Below, in pieces: positions 1,797-9,813 of a DNA stretch of 9,829 bases. Source of the DNA: Peptococcaceae bacterium BRH_c23 (GTDB lineage Bacteria > Bacillota_B > Desulfitobacteriia > Desulfitobacteriales > Desulfitobacteriaceae); the NCBI GenBank assembly GCA_000961805.1, contig LADV01000232.1, positions 1 through 9,829 of the forward strand, read 5' to 3'. The notes beneath the pieces were generated by a model, which worked only from the letters and a program-made list of their open reading frames with translations, did not search any database and was not told the DNA's origin. The position numbers and the translations under genes were made by a program. Numbering within the stretch: position 1 is the first letter of the stretch; every line of letters begins with the position of its first letter.

Positions 1797-2020
1797 GAGT
1801 GTGATCGCCTCCGTTTTTTCTAGATCCTTTATATCTATAATACACTCTTTTCGGTTGCTTTGCGCTATATATCACAAAGTTCTAAAATTAAAATAATTGC
1901 AAATATTTACACTAATCTAATTTATCTCATTATGTCAAAAGTTTGAAACAATTATGTCATTATGTTTCAAGTTCAAATTTATCCGTCAACAGCAAAAGAA
2001 ATGAATCTTACTTTCCACAA
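1797..2020. other. AT-rich spacer with inverted repeat
   Basis: No credible gene is seen. The stretch is very AT-rich. It contains TTGAAACA (1943-1950) and its inverse TGTTTCAA (1963-1970) with 12 bases between, and ATTATGTCA occurs twice, 22 bases apart (1929 and 1951). These could be binding sites for a regulator of the 39-aa gene. A convincing -35/-10 pair for that gene was not found. Confidence 0.4.
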
Positions 2021-2044
2021 TAAAAATCCCCTCACTAGGAGGGG
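2021..2044 (-). terminator. Intrinsic terminator-like hairpin, minus strand
   Basis: CCCCTC-ACTAG-GAGGGG (2028-2044), read on the minus strand, is followed by ATTTTTATTG. No intact minus-strand gene precedes it, so it may terminate antisense transcription or be left over from a lost gene. Confidence 0.5.
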
Positions 2045-2068
2045 TATAGGAAAAAAGGAGGTGTAGAA

Positions 2069-2104
2069 ATGAAAAGAAGTTCAATATTTCAACCGCTAAA
2101 CTAG
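2069..2104 (+). CDS. 11-codon leader-like ORF
   Basis: ATG at 2069 follows a near-consensus ribosome binding site AAAAAAGGAGGTG at good spacing and encodes MKRSSIFQPLN before TAG. The last codons and the stop lie inside a perfect 6-bp hairpin, CCGCTA-AAC-TAGCGG (2093-2107), followed by ATTGTTAT. This arrangement suggests either a leader peptide with an overlapping attenuator-like hairpin or the surviving 5' end of a deleted gene, for example a transposase. Nothing downstream continues the frame. The strong ribosome binding site argues that it was once translated. Confidence 0.35.
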   Translation: MKRSSIFQPLN

Positions 2105-2107
2105 CGG

Positions 2108-2618
2108 ATTGTTATCTCTGTTATTTATCATAATATATAATTGTAACCAGTTTGTGACCTTTGTATGGAGAATATGTGAAGCCTAATAATGAGAAAGAAG
2201 TATGCCTTTATTGCGTAAAGGATTATCACTTAGGTTTATGATGTCGGTAGCACCAAACGGCAGATTTGACATACAAGAGAACCCAATTTATAATTAGTTA
2301 TACCCCTCACGGGTATAACTGTCCTTTAGTAAGGAAGCGAAACATCATACCGATACTAAGTATGACCTGCTCTGCCAGGAATTCGGAGAGAAATTCTCTG
2401 TATACTGCAGTGTATCCGCCAAAAGGAAAGCAGACGTGTTGCGCTATCAAAATCCTTGATCAGCCAGCGGTTTAGTGCAGTCGATATCGGTACTAGTAAA
2501 AGTGGCGGCACCGTCAGCAGTGGGGTCTAAACAGCCTTCGGGTTTTGGGATGCTGAAAAAACTTGTAGGCAATAAGAATTCTGTTGAGCATACGCAAAAG
2601 AGAAAGGAGTATGTTTCT
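2108..2618 (+). other. Upstream region of the selenoprotein gene; no intact gene
   Basis: No intact gene is seen. Two tiny frames are possible: GTG at 2176 (21 aa, preceded by GGAG, containing CLYC, stop at 2241) and ATG at 2202 (31 aa, stop at 2297). From 2319 a frame in phase with the glutaredoxin runs to 2966 with only two stops, both TGA (2457 and 2652). The part before 2457 reads protein-like (KYDLLCQEFGEKFSVYC). An in-frame ATG at 2550 could extend the glutaredoxin by 23 residues but has no clear ribosome binding site. This may be a decayed upstream gene. Confidence 0.35.
2296..2320. promoter_or_regulatory. Perfect palindrome resembling a CsoR-family operator
   Basis: AGTTATACCC-N5-GGGTATAACT is a perfect 10-bp inverted repeat. 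The core TATACCCC...GGGTATA resembles operators bound by CsoR/CstR/FrmR-type (DUF156) repressors, which sense copper, persulfide or formaldehyde. No such regulator is encoded in this window. It lies about 300 bases upstream of the glutaredoxin start. It could equally be an RNA hairpin; the following bases are not a clean T-run. Confidence 0.4.
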
Positions 2619-2966
2619 ATGAAGAACGTCATCATATTCACCACACAAACCTGACCGCATTGTTATACAGCGAAGAAGTTTCTTTCGCAGCATAGGATTC
2701 ATTTTGTGGAAAAGGATATCAACCGTGATGATCAAGCCCGCGCGGAGTTAATCCGCAGAAACGTCAGCGGGGTTCCTTCTTTTCTGATTGGGGATGAGTT
2801 AGTAGTCGGATTCGATCAGGCACGAATTCTACAGCTAGTCGATCATCGGGTCATTGAATGCGAAAAATGCAAGACTAAGATGCGAGTTCCTATTAATAAA
2901 GGGACACTCCAGGTGACTTGTCCGAAATGTTCGTATTGCTTTAATACTACGCCGGAGAAAATTTAA
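2619..2966 (+). CDS. Selenocysteine glutaredoxin fused to a C-terminal zinc ribbon
   Basis: The frame starts at ATG 2619 (AAAGGAG nine bases upstream) and reads MKNVIIFTTQT, then TGA at 2652-2654, then PHCYTAKKF, continuing to TAA at 2966. Decoding TGA as selenocysteine gives a 115-aa protein with a glutaredoxin active site U12-P-H-C15 in place of CPxC, the cis-proline motif GVPSFLIG (P53) and VVGFD: a full thioredoxin fold of about 75 residues. Residues 81-107 form a zinc ribbon, C81-x2-C84 and C101-x2-C104, similar to MJ0042-type ribbons. Glutaredoxins reduce disulfides or glutathionylated proteins; selenium at the attacking position is known in a few anaerobes such as Alkaliphilus oremlandii. 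A hairpin at 2670-2688 fits a bacterial SECIS and a terminator follows. A start at GTG 2706, reading only the C-terminal part, would lose the active site. Alternative: a nonsense mutation, unlikely because TGA falls exactly on the catalytic cysteine and the rest is intact. Confidence 0.88.
2670..2688 (+). promoter_or_regulatory. Candidate bacterial SECIS element
   Basis: Immediately downstream of the TGA codon, GCGAA (2670-2674) pairs with TTCGC (2684-2688). G2675-C2682 and A2676-T2681 can extend the stem, leaving an unpaired T2683 and an apical loop AGTT. The loop G (2678) is 24 bases after the TGA, within the spacing typical of bacterial SECIS elements. The unpaired U and the GU in the loop match features recognised by SelB, although here the bulge is on the 3' side, unlike E. 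coli fdhF. The structure was folded by eye. Confidence 0.6.
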
Positions 2967-2980
2967 ACTGGTTAAGTAGG

Positions 2981-3008
2981 AAACCCGCTCAATGTAGCGG
3001 GTTTTATT
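2981..3008 (+). terminator. Intrinsic terminator of the selenoprotein gene
   Basis: AAACCCGCT-N6-AGCGGGTTT (2981-3004) is a perfect 9-bp stem ending in TTTTATTA, 15 bases after the glutaredoxin stop on the same strand. Confidence 0.85.
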
Positions 3009-3129
3009 ACATGACATAGTAATCTGCTATTATACAAATATGTAACAAACCTACAAGATCCATTCCGTATCCAGTTGTTAAGGCACCAAAATCCGAGAAA
3101 CATCTTGAGTTATTTCCATGAGCTTCACA

Positions 3130-3453: not shown

Positions 3454-3909
3454 TTATATCACTCTACGACAACATTCCGGACTCTTTGAAATTGCATTTA
3501 GTAGAAGAGTGAGACTTTCATTGACCTGATCTCTTCTTTCTTCTGGTATCTGGTTGAAAATATCTACCACATAGCCCGCCAGAGAATTAGTTAAACTCTG
3601 ATTAATTAAAAGTCCTTGCTCCGTTAGATTTAAGTTTAGATACCGTTTATCTTCAATTGATTGGAGACTTTTAACGATCCCAGATTCAATAAGTCCTTGG
3701 ACATGACGGCTAATGGTACTTTTCTCTAAACCTAACATATGTGCTAAATCATTAACAATGATTCCAGGATGTCTACCAATTTCATAAATGATATGGTTTT
3801 GGGCAGGGGTAATCCCACAGCACTGAGCCCCTTCCTTCTGTAAAAGACCTAGGCTACGAATTAGGTCATTCAACAAATCACTTAATCTCTCGACTTCAAG
3901 CCTTTCCAT
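3454..3909 (-). CDS. MarR-family transcriptional regulator with vicinal cysteines
   Basis: This 151-aa protein begins at ATG 3909, preceded by GAGGAGGG. It is a winged-helix regulator of normal MarR length: an N-terminal dimerisation helix (1-27), a helix-turn-helix around 48-72 (VNDLAHMLGLEKSTISRHV), the wing with the DKRY motif (SIEDKRYLNLNLTEQG, about 81-96), and a C-terminal dimerisation helix. MarR proteins repress as dimers and release DNA when a ligand or oxidant binds. Two vicinal cysteine pairs stand out, C30-C31 in QCCGIT before the DNA-binding domain and C146-C147 near the C-terminus, suggesting thiol, metal(loid) or redox sensing; this is inference. A 29-bp palindrome covers its own promoter, implying autoregulation, and a second copy precedes the downstream membrane gene, the likely target. 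Confidence 0.88.
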   Translation of the reverse strand: MERLEVERLSDLLNDLIRSLGLLQKEGAQCCGITPAQNHIIYEIGRHPGIIVNDLAHMLGLEKSTISRHVQGLIESGIVKSLQSIEDKRYLNLNLTEQGLLINQSLTNSLAGYVVDIFNQIPEERRDQVNESLTLLLNAISKSPECCRRVI

Positions 3910-4378: not shown

Positions 4379-4699
4379 TTATTTTTTGAGGGTTTGTTTT
4401 GCTTCCAAATCAAATTTAACGGACTTCAGAGCATTTTCAATACTGATTAAGGGAGTAATCTCTGTCTCAAGAAAAGGAAATATAGGAGATTGGGATATTA
4501 ATGTATGGAGTTCCTCGACGGACTCAACATCCCAAATAACACAACCACCTTTTCTACCGGCAATCATCCCTTGTGCCAAAATCTTCCCCTGTTTCTGATA
4601 GTTTATAACTTTTTCCCACCCTTGTACCATAATTTCTTTGACCTGTTGAGGTGGGAACGGAGGCAATTGTGTCAATTCGCTTTTAACAAAGAATAACAT
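4379..4699 (-). CDS. Muconolactone delta-isomerase-like ABM protein
   Basis: This 106-aa protein starts at ATG 4699, with GAAGGG upstream. The pattern MLFFVKSEL, QGWEKVINYQKQGKI, GRKGGCVIWDVESVEEL, then FPFLETEITPLISIENAL is that of the muconolactone delta-isomerase family, a ferredoxin-like dimeric alpha/beta barrel. True CatC isomerises muconolactone in the beta-ketoadipate pathway. Stand-alone homologues in anaerobic Firmicutes are common and usually of unknown substrate, and no other catechol-pathway gene is in this window, so the enzymatic label should be held loosely. Length is close to that of the family. It is a single-gene unit with its own terminator. The 12-mer TATGGTGAGGCA occurs on opposite strands on both sides of the gene (4359-4370 and 4758-4769). 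Confidence 0.8.
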   Translation of the reverse strand: MLFFVKSELTQLPPFPPQQVKEIMVQGWEKVINYQKQGKILAQGMIAGRKGGCVIWDVESVEELHTLISQSPIFPFLETEITPLISIENALKSVKFDLEAKQTLKK

Positions 4700-5617: not shown

Positions 5618-5791
5618 ATGAAGCGGAAAGACTTAATAAAAAAGTTAACTGATAATGGTTGGTGGTTATTGAGAAACGGTGCAAACCATGATTTGTACAC
5701 CAACGGAATATACAGTGAACCGATTCCTCGCCATAGAGAAGTTGATGAAAAGCTAGCAAAAGCTATCATCAAGCGACAGGGGCTAAACTAA
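5618..5791 (+). CDS. hicA: HicA toxin, mRNA interferase
   Basis: This 57-aa protein begins MKRKDLIKKLTDNGWWLLRN with GGGGTGAGG upstream of the ATG. It has the compact HicA double-stranded-RNA-binding-like fold: an N-terminal helix, GANHDLY with the probable catalytic histidine H24, IPRH at the end of the strand, and EVDEKLAKAIIKRQG as the last helix. HicA cleaves mRNA and arrests growth when it is not bound by HicB. Length is normal for the family. It lies 37 bases upstream of hicB in the usual toxin-first order. The stop codon is part of a small hairpin (5779-5796). Confidence 0.9.
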   Translation: MKRKDLIKKLTDNGWWLLRNGANHDLYTNGIYSEPIPRHREVDEKLAKAIIKRQGLN

Positions 5792-5796
5792 GCCCC
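5779..5796 (+). other. Hairpin at the hicA stop codon
   Basis: GGGGCT-AAACTA-AGCCCC is a perfect 6-bp stem spanning the hicA stop codon. It has no T-run. It could modulate the toxin-to-antitoxin ratio through transcript stability or translation, but that is inference. Confidence 0.4.
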
Positions 5797-5828
5797 TAAA
5801 CGCTTTGAAAATATGGAGGTGTTTTTTG

Positions 5829-6215
5829 ATGAAAAAAGTATATCCTGTTGTTTTAACTCCGGCAGACGTAGGCTATGTTGTCTTTGTCCCTGATTTGCAT
5901 ATTAACACCGAGGGTATCGATGTAGCTAACGCCATCGAAATGGCCCGCGACGCGATTGGACTTTGGGGAATCTGTGAAGAGGATATGGGCCGGTCTATTC
6001 CATCACCATCTACTCTGCACCCTGTATGCGAAGCCAATGAGCTTGTTACCTTGGTAGATATTGATTTCGACGCATACCGCAGGGCAAACGATAATCGTAC
6101 GATCAGAAAAAATTTGACGATTCCAAGTTGGCTGAACGTTCAAGCTGAGAAAGCTGGGATAAACTTTTCCCAAGTCCTACAAAGCGCTTTAAAAGACCAA
6201 CTTGGCATTCAGTGA
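5829..6215 (+). CDS. hicB: HicB antitoxin with C-terminal ribbon-helix-helix
   Basis: ATG 5829 is preceded by ATGGAGGTG at good spacing and is preferred over an in-frame ATG at 5805, giving MKKVYPVVLTPADVGYVVFVPDLH. The 128-aa protein has an N-terminal partial RNase-H-like domain (1-60, with the typical DVANAIEMARDAIGLW helix) that binds and neutralises HicA. Its C-terminal segment (RKNLTIPSWLNVQAEKAG, then INFSQVLQSALKDQL) is a ribbon-helix-helix DNA-binding motif. HicB-type antitoxins bind HicA and repress their own promoter. It forms an operon with hicA and is followed directly by a strong terminator. All expected parts are present, so the pair should be functional. Confidence 0.9.
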   Translation: MKKVYPVVLTPADVGYVVFVPDLHINTEGIDVANAIEMARDAIGLWGICEEDMGRSIPSPSTLHPVCEANELVTLVDIDFDAYRRANDNRTIRKNLTIPSWLNVQAEKAGINFSQVLQSALKDQLGIQ

Positions 6216-6244: not shown

Positions 6245-6284
6245 ATAATGTAGATCGAGTTAATTCGATCTACATTATCTTTTG
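6245..6284 (+). terminator. hicAB terminator
   Basis: ATAATGTAGATCGA (6245-6258) and TCGATCTACATTAT (6265-6278) form a perfect 14-bp stem followed by CTTTTG. It starts 29 bases after the hicB stop, and the stop codon of the tnpB fragment on the other strand lies inside it. Confidence 0.85.
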
Positions 6285-6797
6285 TCTTTCAACTAATAAA
6301 TCGAAGTATTTTATACTCGGGTTCGACTGTCTATAGGCAATTTTGCCAGAGGGCAAATCCTTTACCCGAACCACTATAGGTTTTTGACGTTTACCACTGA
6401 AAAGCCCCAAACTTAACTCGATTTTTCCGTTTTCACCAACCCGAAACCCGTCTTTTTTCCATTTAGTATTGAAATGCTTTTTTTCTTTGTACGGATACCG
6501 AATTTGGGTGAATCCCAATGATCTCGCTTTATGGGCATTTTCTCTAGCATCGATGTATTTTTCGTATACCGCCTGTATGGACTGACTGTGGATTGGGTAT
6601 TGACCTTTGGTAGCTAAATGCAACGTCCCTCGGTCAATCCAGCTATCGGTTTTTTGAAAATGCTCTTTGGCCAATCCTAGACAATCATTCCAAACATTAG
6701 CAGATGTGCGATTACAGGCAAAGAGACGGTCAATGTTGTCTTTAGTAGTCAGGAATTTTGTCTTTAAGACTCGGATTATTTTGAACACCCCCTCCAA
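6270..6797 (-). pseudogene. tnpB: Truncated TnpB (IS605/IS1341 OrfB), N-terminal part only
   Basis: The 175-aa frame shows the typical TnpB N-terminus: IRVLKTKFLTTKDNIDRLFACNR, NVWNDCLGLAKEHF, helical YEKYIDARENAHKAR, then the beta segment SLGLFSGKRQKPIVVRV. It stops in SIKYFDLLVERQKIM, just before the RuvC-like catalytic core and zinc ribbon would begin. Full TnpB proteins are about 370-420 aa, so more than half is missing and no RNA-guided nuclease activity is possible. The break falls exactly in the hicAB terminator hairpin, suggesting a deletion or insertion junction. The 5' end is odd: GGAGGGGG is present but at the expected start position there is ATA rather than ATG, so only TTG (6797) or GTG (6788) could be used. 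No neighbouring tnpA was seen. Confidence 0.85.
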
Positions 6798-7092: not shown

Positions 7093-9813
7093 TTATTTGT
7101 CCATGCTCATCACTAATTCATTAGCAATGTTTGGGCTATCCAGTCGCATGATACTTTCTTCAGCACTACCAAAACTCAAAAGATTGATACTCCCATACCA
7201 CACGATTCGTTGGTCTATGAGTGCATATTTTTGGTGAATATTCGATTTGAAAACTAAGCTTACTCCAGCAACCTTCAATAGATCCAGCGCACCCTGTAAC
7301 GCACTCGTATTCTTGTCCTTGAAATCTCCAAGTGACCGGGTTATGACGATAACTCTCACCTTATTTTCTAAGGCAACCTTCAGATGCTGCATCATTTGTA
7401 GAGTACGTCTCTTGGTAACAAAAGGGCTAACTATCAGAATTTCTCTTGCAGCATTGATAATATCATTAGTATAGACCGATAAAAAATTGCTCTTGTCAAA
7501 AATCACATTGATTGACTCTGATGTACTACTTTTCCCTTTTGCTTTATAACCAATCGTGGCATATCCGTTTAGCCGTTTATGGTACATCCGTTCAAGCATC
7601 CTTACATGGATATCCACATAGTCGTAGATTTGCACTTCATTTTTGTTTGCAAAGAGTCTGTGAAGCCTTCCTGCATATTGTTGCAAGGTGCCTTTCCAGG
7701 ATATTGGCATCACTAAAAATAACGTGTCAAGGCGTGGTTCGTCAAAGCCCTCTCCAATGTATTTTCCAGTGGCAACAATTGTTAATTGCTTGTCAGCAGG
7801 TGTCTCTGATATTTGTGTCATTATCTCCCTAGTTTGTTTTACTCCCATTCCACCCGTTAAAGAGATCACTTCAGGAATTCTTTCACGCAGTTTCTTTAAA
7901 AGCAATTCGACATGCGCCGTTCTCTCAGTTAAAACAAGACAGTTTCTGCCACTTTCAAAGCTTCGAGCGATATCATCTACGATAAGCTGATTCCTAAATT
8001 CATTGACGACAATTTCGGAGTACAGTTCTTGAATCGATACATCCTTTTCATTCTTATCCAGAGGGACTCTAAGCGACGTAAACCTTGGAATGACATAATG
8101 CTCAAAGGGCCTTTTTGCTGCCTGTTTTTTGGCATCATCCTTGTATCGTATGGAACCACATTGCATAAATATGATCGGATGATGTCCATCTTTTCGTACA
8201 GGTGTCGCAGTTAATCCGTATACATATTTTGCATTTGAACTTTTAAGTACTTTCTCAAAGCTAAAAGCTGATATATGATGACACTCATCTACAATAATCA
8301 TGCCATAATTTTTAACACAATCGTTCACGTCACCCATTTTATTCAAGGATTGCATGACAGCTATATCTATTATTCCATTCAAATTATTCTTGCCCGCTCC
8401 CAATTGCCCTATCGTGCTATTTGCCTTTTTTCTTCCTTTCTTTTTGATTTCGAACATGTCTGGAAGGGCTTCATTTATAGTCAAGAATTCTGTTAATCTT
8501 CTTTTCCATTGGGTTACCAAATTTACTTTATCCACGATAATCAGCGTATTAACTTTTCTCTCAGCAATCAGATTTATGGCAACCACAGTTTTCCCAAAAG
8601 CGGTTGTTCCAGAGAGTACTCCTATATCCTGTTTGAGCAATTGAAAAAGTGCCTGTGGTTGTTCGTCCCTCAAACTACCGTTAAATTCTACCTCGATGCT
8701 CCTGCCAGGGTTGGTTTCATCTATAAATTCAGGTTCAATCTTTAGTTCTGCGAAAAAAGACTTTAAGTCGGCTTCACACCCTCTTGGCAGACAGAGATAG
8801 TCTTCTGTTTCGTCAGAACATGATATTATTCTAGGTATTTCAAAGATGGGCAGCCGCATGGCCTGAGCCTTATAAAACTCTGGATTTTTGAAAGCTGCCA
8901 ACCGTTTTAAATGGTTTAGCGCTCTTTGAGAAATGCCCGTTTTCGGGATAAACAGCATATTTGCTTTGACTATTGTTATTGATTGAGGAAAATCATTCAT
9001 TGATAGTTTGATTATGTTTATATCCCAGGGCTTTTGTGGTTCTTCTTGATCATCTTTTTTCAAAATGCCAAGTTCATTTCCAGTGCAAAGTTTCGATATA
9101 AGACTTTCGACGTCATCTTCAGAGAGCTTTCGTAGGGTGGTCATGAATTCCCATTGATCCTTAAAAGGCTCAAAATTGTCATCGATAAAAACGCTGTTAT
9201 TATGACTCCTTGCAGCTTTTTGCAAGGGCAAGGCAATTAAATTCCCAAAGCCGCCCATTGGCATAGTGTCCTGATTAGGAAAAAACCTGTCATAAGATTT
9301 AAAGGTAATCTCATGTCTTTTGTTCATGGCGTAGGTAAGGAGTGCGCTTCCGAGTTTCCTTGCTAAAGTAGCGGCAATAGGGCTTTCAAAGAAAATCCAA
9401 GCATGGGCTCCATTTCCTGACCTCGAGCGTTCAATGGCTATTGGAAAATCAAATTCTGAACATACTTCTCTAAGCTGTGAAATATCCTTCTGCCACTCTC
9501 CATCGTCAAAGTCAATCGCTAAAAAGTGACACGTATCATCAAGGCACAGCGGATATATTCCCGCAACTAAATTACCACGCCCTCGTAAATGATCGCCAAT
9601 AGCCTTTTCGTCCAAACGGGCATAGGCCTTATTGGAGCAAGCGGTGCATTTTACCTTTGGTTTTCTGCACAGTTCAGTTTTCCATTCATTCAAACAGCAC
9701 TGCGAATATCCACTCGTCCCCTTCTTTTTGTTTTCCCATCGTTTAGCAAAAACATCATCCCGGCCTTTAAAGAGTGACATAAATAACTCGATTTTGTCCT
9801 TGGGATCTGACAT
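7093..9813 (-). CDS. TOTE-type primase, SF2 DECH helicase and PLD-family nuclease fusion
   Basis: The 906-aa protein starts at ATG 9813; the 16 bases left upstream are open in frame and show no ribosome binding site, so the start is provisional. Residues 35-60 hold a cysteine knuckle region (CC39-40, C49, C56, C59). Residues 80-240 are an archaeo-eukaryotic primase domain of the TOTE conflict type: catalytic acidic motif AIDFDD (D101, D103), SRSGNGAHAWIFF (H137) and FGNLIALPLQ. Residues 375-750 are an SF2 helicase: Walker A TTAFGKT (K408), DECH box (509-512), motif III LTATP and motif VI QQYAGRLHR. Residues 770-890 are a phospholipase-D-like domain with one half-site, H860-x-K862...D867 and GSIN (874-877), so two subunits would be needed for nuclease activity. 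Such fusions are associated with mobile elements and defence. All core motifs look intact. Confidence 0.88.
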   Translation of the reverse strand: MSDPKDKIELFMSLFKGRDDVFAKRWENKKKGTSGYSQCCLNEWKTELCRKPKVKCTACSNKAYARLDEKAIGDHLRGRGNLVAGIYPLCLDDTCHFLAIDFDDGEWQKDISQLREVCSEFDFPIAIERSRSGNGAHAWIFFESPIAATLARKLGSALLTYAMNKRHEITFKSYDRFFPNQDTMPMGGFGNLIALPLQKAARSHNNSVFIDDNFEPFKDQWEFMTTLRKLSEDDVESLISKLCTGNELGILKKDDQEEPQKPWDINIIKLSMNDFPQSITIVKANMLFIPKTGISQRALNHLKRLAAFKNPEFYKAQAMRLPIFEIPRIISCSDETEDYLCLPRGCEADLKSFFAELKIEPEFIDETNPGRSIEVEFNGSLRDEQPQALFQLLKQDIGVLSGTTAFGKTVVAINLIAERKVNTLIIVDKVNLVTQWKRRLTEFLTINEALPDMFEIKKKGRKKANSTIGQLGAGKNNLNGIIDIAVMQSLNKMGDVNDCVKNYGMIIVDECHHISAFSFEKVLKSSNAKYVYGLTATPVRKDGHHPIIFMQCGSIRYKDDAKKQAAKRPFEHYVIPRFTSLRVPLDKNEKDVSIQELYSEIVVNEFRNQLIVDDIARSFESGRNCLVLTERTAHVELLLKKLRERIPEVISLTGGMGVKQTREIMTQISETPADKQLTIVATGKYIGEGFDEPRLDTLFLVMPISWKGTLQQYAGRLHRLFANKNEVQIYDYVDIHVRMLERMYHKRLNGYATIGYKAKGKSSTSESINVIFDKSNFLSVYTNDIINAAREILIVSPFVTKRRTLQMMQHLKVALENKVRVIVITRSLGDFKDKNTSALQGALDLLKVAGVSLVFKSNIHQKYALIDQRIVWYGSINLLSFGSAEESIMRLDSPNIANELVMSMDK

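Follow-up and report, generated by a model that had tools for sequence, protein, structure and literature searches.

A Predicted Selenocysteine-Containing Glutaredoxin Fused to a Zinc Ribbon in Peptococcaceae Bacterium BRH_c23

The gene at positions 2619-2966 of the window (the whole stretch of 9,829 nucleotides of Peptococcaceae bacterium BRH_c23 DNA analyzed here) very probably encodes a selenoprotein, namely a dithiol-type glutaredoxin with a UPHC active site followed by a zinc ribbon, in which an in-frame TGA would be read as selenocysteine (Sec) by way of a SECIS element. This reading was drawn from comparison with related genes and genomes, which display an exchange of Sec and Cys at codon 12, a hairpin that is linked to the TGA and the co-occurrence of Sec machinery. 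A sequence-only reading of the same DNA had proposed a Sec glutaredoxin at this place, an interpretation that is supported by the present analysis.

Gene Layout and Reading Frame

The features predicted for the gene and its surroundings were as follows.

2266..2294, forward strand: sigma-70 type promoter, TTGACA-17-TATAAT, matching the consensus at 12 of 12 positions
2603..2609, forward strand: ribosome binding site AAAGGAG, read from the sequence, upstream of ATG 2619
2619..2966, forward strand: predicted selenoprotein gene (glutaredoxin and zinc ribbon), 115 aa, ATG to TAA
2652..2654, forward strand: in-frame TGA, predicted Sec codon (Sec12 of UPHC); TGA in 40 of 55 genes, TGT or TGC in 15 of 55
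2670..2688, forward strand: predicted bacterial SECIS hairpin, 22 nt past the TGA, with apical loop AGUU at 2677-2680
2859..2930, forward strand: C-terminal zinc ribbon, Cys81-Cys84 and Cys101-Cys104 (CxxC...CxxC), invariant in alignment A1 (19 sequences)
2981..3004, forward strand: terminator-like stem AAACCCGCT/AGCGGGTTT, a 9-bp stem read from the sequence and followed by a short T run only

Under translation table 11 the frame is interrupted. Its sole internal stop is the TGA at codon 12, on either side of which it reads MKNVIIFTTQT-U-PHCYTAKKF..., so that the TGA occupies the position of the first catalytic cysteine of a glutaredoxin (TUPHC), exactly where it had been placed by the sequence-only reading. 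It had also been foreseen that a gene finder would start at GTG 2706 and lose the active site; an 86-aa ORF with this start is present at 2706-2966, and a database protein of 98% identity (P0006) begins exactly there. The ribosome binding site, the ATG, the GVP motif and the zinc-ribbon cysteines, all of which had been described as intact, were found to be so, but the terminator described with them is only partly borne out, as the terminator scan did not accept the stem at 2981-3004 by its T-tract rule. With a loose pattern, all 55 genes showed a Shine-Dalgarno-like word no more than 20 nt 5' of the start.

A promoter scan of the region returned 3 sites, with 1.8 expected from shuffles, and the only 12/12 match among them was that at 2266..2294. 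Both hexamers and their spacing are also present in Desulfosporosinus lacus (locus L002), and judged by its consensus match this site is likely to be the promoter of the glutaredoxin gene. Approximately 320 nt (2295-2618, forward strand) separate the promoter sequence from the gene. This stretch is recognizable in D. lacus (68% identity) and was not recognizable in the seven other genomes searched, and the frame of the short ORFs within it is not preserved between the window organism and D. lacus.

Domains and Predicted Structure of the Protein

With the TGA read as Cys, residues 4-62 match the Pfam glutaredoxin family (PF00462) at E=3e-14 with 53.4 bits, the cut-off being 22.9. Residues 51-53 (GVP), which we take to be the cis-proline motif, are invariant in the 19 sequences of alignment A1. 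The CxxC..CxxC arrangement of the zinc ribbon was found in 53 of the 55 genes, the two without it being L049 and L054, the frames of which end at about residue 76. None of the zinc-ribbon families of Pfam and NCBIfam matched the window protein at E 0.001, while PF13717 is precomputed for many of its homologs and MJ0042_CXXC was matched by 5 of the 19 members of A1.

The full protein was modeled with AlphaFold2, Cys being substituted for Sec; the model has a mean pLDDT of 94 and matches glutaredoxins, its best fold match being cGrx1 of Clostridium oremlandii OhILAs (known too as Alkaliphilus oremlandii). cGrx1 is also the closest solved structure (7c10; profile E 1.2e-26), with 46% identity and an rmsd of 0.9 over 73 columns.

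Codon 12 in Related Genes

A protein search returned 48 homologs of the window protein. At residue 12, Cys is present in nine of these and Trp in five, whereas the other 34 start beyond that position. A genome scan yielded 58 loci, of which 53 were read by codon together with L001, a plasmid-collection record from Acetoanaerobium noterae. Left out of all counts were the distant or partial matches L055-L059 and the viral loci L060-L063; seven of these have Cys at the matching position, and the matches of L058 and L059 begin downstream of the site.

Of the 54 relatives, 39 have TGA as codon 12, and the remaining 15 have TGT or TGC. With the window gene included, the 55 genes comprise 40 with TGA, 10 with TGT and 5 with TGC, and no other codon occurs, in agreement with the proposal that homologs would carry either C or U at residue 12. 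The recurrence of TGA at this one codon in 39 of 54 relatives, with Cys codons in the other 15, is more than chance would be expected to produce. Among the 40 TGA genes, T11, P13 and C15 are each present in 40 and K2 in 37.

The nearest relatives are D. lacus and Desulfosporosinus sp. I2 (93% identical), and in the tree the window gene pairs with that of D. lacus. The tree of the genes has seven changes of the Sec/Cys label, three of which are forced by well-supported branches. Desulfosporosinus metallidurans carries both a Sec-form gene and a Cys-form paralog in one genome (L009 and L020).

The Predicted SECIS Hairpin

The hairpin downstream of the TGA was assessed with a synonymous-codon test, in which codons 17-25 of each gene were compared with 500 synonymous recodings drawn from the pooled codon usage of the family. 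The mean z was -2.56 in the TGA genes (p at or below 0.05 in 28 of 40, p at or below 0.01 in 9 of 40) and +0.12 in the Cys genes (p at or below 0.05 in 1 of 15), while at eight further nine-codon segments of the TGA genes the mean z ranged from -0.25 to +0.39. Since the segment 17-25 was picked after the folds had been inspected, its z values are to be judged against the Cys genes and these other segments. The window hairpin itself gave z -2.66 (p 0.036), and 12 of the 40 TGA genes miss p 0.05. Compared with dinucleotide shuffles, the 54-nt stretch downstream of the TGA in the window is not significant (z -0.39, with 72 of 200 shuffles as good), so the signal rests on the family and the synonymous-codon test.

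Rules for bacterial SECIS elements are given in the legend to Fig. 2 of PMC13188914, the part of that article drawn on here, and ask for a loop of 3-9 nt, a stem of 4-16 bp, a spacing of 16-37 nt, a G in the first two loop positions and an MFE of -7.5 or lower. With several stretches tried in each gene and the best retained, the full set of rules is satisfied by 33 of the 40 TGA genes and none of the 15 Cys genes; with the energy rule omitted, the figures are 38 of 40 and 4 of 15, the TGA genes L005 and L037 breaking the loop rule. For the window, the best stretch has the loop AGUU, a spacing of 22 nt and an MFE of -10.5. In 33 of the 40 TGA genes, 22 or 23 nt separate the TGA from the hairpin.

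Ser occupies residue 23, which lies under the 3' arm, in 32 of the 40 TGA genes and in 2 of the 15 Cys genes. Of 39 distinct rows, 23 have C-G at column pair 20-36 and 5 have G-C, the latter being the rows that encode Gly18 by GGG and Ser23 by TCC; judging from the alignment, the coupling of these two codons is a compensatory change. Across the seven-pair helix, the 39 distinct rows of the TGA genes have 79.1% of cells paired, and the 14 distinct rows of the Cys genes have 50.0%. The value of 79.1% exceeds those of all slid controls (26.0 to 68.5), although the covariation score is equivocal, as a 3' arm slid by -2 scores 0.199 and the unslid arm 0.157. Taken over the family, it is the TGA genes specifically that preserve a SECIS-like hairpin, and they do so beyond what the protein sequence needs.

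The only positive Cys gene is that of L006 (5460-5801), which retains a SECIS-like hairpin. Its genome has selA, selB and selD and no tRNA-Sec above 60 bits, and L006 is likely to represent a recent Sec-to-Cys replacement that has left a SECIS remnant. Cases of this kind are described for other families in the accessible portion of Zhang et al., 2006 (PMC1794560).

A search of the window with Rfam gave nothing above the gathering scores. With permissive settings over 2000-3030, only far sub-threshold matches appeared, namely Hrs1 at 2019-2091 (E 0.008, 26.8 bits with a gathering score of 56.4) and Leu_leader (18.3 bits, gathering score 50).

Selenocysteine Machinery in the Genomes of Relatives

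The survey of sel genes covered 50 of the 54 loci, leaving out L001, L020, L028 and L047 (the genomes of L020 and L047 are counted through other loci). It comprised 50 genomes, 39 with a TGA gene and 11 with a Cys gene only, the latter being genomes in which a single genome scan found only a Cys gene. Genes selA, selB and selD were counted over curated cut-offs, and tRNA-Sec above 60 bits, a threshold of our own choosing. At the Rfam level of 47 bits, 40 of the 50 genomes pass, as do 5 of 14 control genomes, and this level was therefore taken to include other tRNAs.

Both selA and selB were found in 37 of the 39 TGA-gene genomes as against 3 of the 11 Cys-gene genomes (Fisher p 1.2e-5 for each gene), selD in 38 of 39 as against 6 of 11 (p 1.2e-3) and tRNA-Sec in 35 of 39 as against 2 of 11 (p 1.3e-5), all of these p values overstating independence on account of the shared history of close relatives. 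Three Cys-gene genomes carry selA together with selB. In the genomes of D. lacus (G001) and Desulfosporosinus sp. I2 (G002), all of selA, selB, selC and selD were found, and from the sel genes of the relatives we infer that the window organism would possess the machinery as well.

Among the TGA-gene genomes, searches of G047 (L051) found no selA, selB or tRNA-Sec above 60 bits, those of G014 (L015, Paradesulfitobacterium ferrireducens) no selA or selD, those of G028 (L031) no selB, and those of G007, G010 and G016 no tRNA-Sec above 60 bits. All of these except G014 are metagenome bins, and as contigs of fewer than 3,000 bases are absent from the genome set, gaps in the sel genes are to be expected.

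Alternative Readings of the In-Frame TGA

Were the TGA a nonsense mutation that had killed a glutaredoxin gene, the broken frame under table 11 would follow directly. Independent mutations of this kind would, however, fall at varied positions, and 39 relatives share the TGA at codon 12 and keep an otherwise open frame (ending near residue 76 in L049 and L054). The D. lacus protein is moreover 93% identical over residues 1-115 and the hairpin has been preserved beyond the needs of the protein, which makes a pseudogene extremely improbable. It is equally hard to credit an alternative code with TGA as tryptophan, by which residue 12 would be Trp. Five database entries do show W at this residue (P0002, P0003, P0004, P0008, and P0018), and these are most simply seen as short contigs called under a code of that kind. 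Against such a code, the alternative codons at this position are always TGT or TGC and never TGG among the 55 genes, the HicB-like gene of the window terminates at TGA, and selB and tRNA-Sec are present in most genomes of relatives with TGA genes.

It may also be supposed that the true product is the 86-aa protein from GTG 2706, consisting of the zinc ribbon and a partial thioredoxin fold, with the upstream part left untranslated. Gene callers choose this start, and 34 of the 48 database homologs begin past the position of the TGA. We consider this very unlikely, given that the 40 TGA genes share conserved residues both ahead of the TGA and next to it, that the ribosome binding site precedes ATG 2619 and that the short form would be without the first strand and the active site; the 86-aa protein may nonetheless arise as a truncated by-product at low selenium.

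Comparison with Known Selenoprotein Glutaredoxins

The selenoprotein reading places the window gene among proteins of an established kind. Glutaredoxin is listed among the experimentally verified selenoprotein families in the section of PMC13188914 available to us, and the accessible text of PMC7642778 presents cGrx1, with its U(or C)PXC motif, as a native selenoprotein. Like the window protein, cGrx1 (PDB 7c10, 7c12, 7c13) has a U(C)PHC active site and a glutaredoxin fold, but its solved chain is a single domain of 84 residues without a zinc ribbon and matches only residues 2-74 of the window protein. The same text of PMC7642778 proposes that cGrx1 reduces a Sec-containing MsrA. Sec-MsrA was considered as a general partner of the family and rejected, a TGA being present inside MsrA in 1 of 42 genomes with an MsrA match.

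Sec glutaredoxins are reported in the accessible portion of Zhang et al., 2006 (PMC1794560) for Geobacter sulfurreducens, Alkaliphilus metalliredigenes and Moorella thermoacetica, and the hosts of such proteins are there given as anaerobic or facultative. Sec glutaredoxins with a UXXC motif are also included in the Sargasso Sea set, going by the excerpt of PMC1088965. Sec glutaredoxins are thus already known, and the window gene is strongly supported as a further member.

The UXX-star glutaredoxin-like selenoproteins (NF041212, NF041114, NF041211) are weakly similar to the window protein, which scores 41.0 bits with NF041212, below the curated cut-off of 66 bits, and so falls outside that family. 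For two UXX-star families, the available section of PMC13188914 lists the motifs UxxT and GxGU. The best NCBIfam match is GlrX_YruB (TIGR02196) with 62.5 bits over residues 4-74, again short of the cut-off (88.55) and of membership, and no NCBIfam model scored above its cut-off for the window protein. At E 0.001 all 19 members of A1 match TIGR02196, a model of 74 positions that ends before the zinc ribbon.

Literature searches, with most subscription papers outside their reach, found no publication on a fusion of glutaredoxin and zinc ribbon (with selenocysteine or MJ0042 as search terms), nothing on selenocysteine and glutaredoxin in Desulfosporosinus and no use of the phrase 'selenocysteine-containing glutaredoxin'. 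The zinc-ribbon fusion architecture is thus possibly unreported so far.

Neighborhood and Other Genes of the Window

Among ORFs of at least 80 aa centered within 5 kb, the glutaredoxin was the only window ORF to cluster with those of other loci. In the loci of relatives, which extend at most 8 kb per side, no tblastn match at E 1e-4 was obtained for eight further window proteins. The clearest shared neighborhood is that of six Acetobacterium-like Cys-gene loci, in five of which the next gene is from one cluster. In L021, the only copy scanned, this next gene encodes an FAD pyridine-nucleotide disulfide oxidoreductase with a rhodanese domain, and an oxidoreductase of this type may be taken only as a lead to the electron donor.

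The remaining genes of the window include a MarR-family regulator with two Cys-Cys pairs in its sequence (3454-3909, reverse strand; PF12802, 46.8 bits) and a protein similar to muconolactone delta-isomerase (4379-4699, reverse strand; PF02426, 55.4 bits). The forward strand at 5618-6215 carries a HicA-like gene, which at 26.8 bits narrowly misses the Pfam cut-off of 27, and after it a gene for a HicB-like antitoxin, which passes that cut-off with 29.6 bits. The short ORF at 6270-6797 (reverse strand) resembles TnpB in that protein's N-terminal part, with 34.3 bits against a cut-off of 100, and is probably a transposon remnant. The protein encoded at 7093-9813 (reverse strand) combines an AEP-TOTE primase domain (PF22548, 335.6 bits) with helicase and PLD-like domains and belongs to a TOTE conflict system; as a database copy of 100% identity has 984 aa, its start lies beyond the end of the window. 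No near match of the window that would point to a plasmid or phage origin was found.

Proposed Function and Significance

In the proposed mechanism, SelB with Sec-tRNA would decode the TGA at 2652-2654 as Sec, with the hairpin at 2670-2688 acting as a bacterial SECIS, and going by the relatives such insertion would take place in the window organism itself. The product would be a dithiol-type glutaredoxin in which Sec replaces the attacking cysteine of CPHC, giving UPHC, with a small zinc ribbon behind it. The selenolate of Sec12 would attack a disulfide or other oxidized group of a partner protein, after which Cys15 would resolve the mixed selenylsulfide, a chemistry taken from cGrx1 and from glutaredoxins generally. 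The zinc ribbon would contact the substrate or provide a second redox site.

A more far-reaching and rather improbable reading would have the gene belong to a distinct and widely distributed clostridial subfamily of Sec glutaredoxins fused to a redox-active zinc ribbon, in which oxidation of Sec12 would be passed to the thiolates of the ribbon, with zinc release as the switch, making the protein a selenium-based redox sensor or relay and not a plain disulfide reductase. The fusion occurs in 53 of 55 genes, while communication between the modules is hypothetical.

For the family as a whole, the results point to a systematic annotation error, as 34 of 48 database homologs start past the active site and five have Trp for the expected Sec. 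The 40 Sec and 15 Cys genes form a clean natural data set on Sec/Cys exchange, with special cases in D. metallidurans, which has both forms, and in L006, with its Cys gene and SECIS-like hairpin. The same set of genes can serve to follow how a SECIS constrains its own protein, at Ser23 and Gly18.
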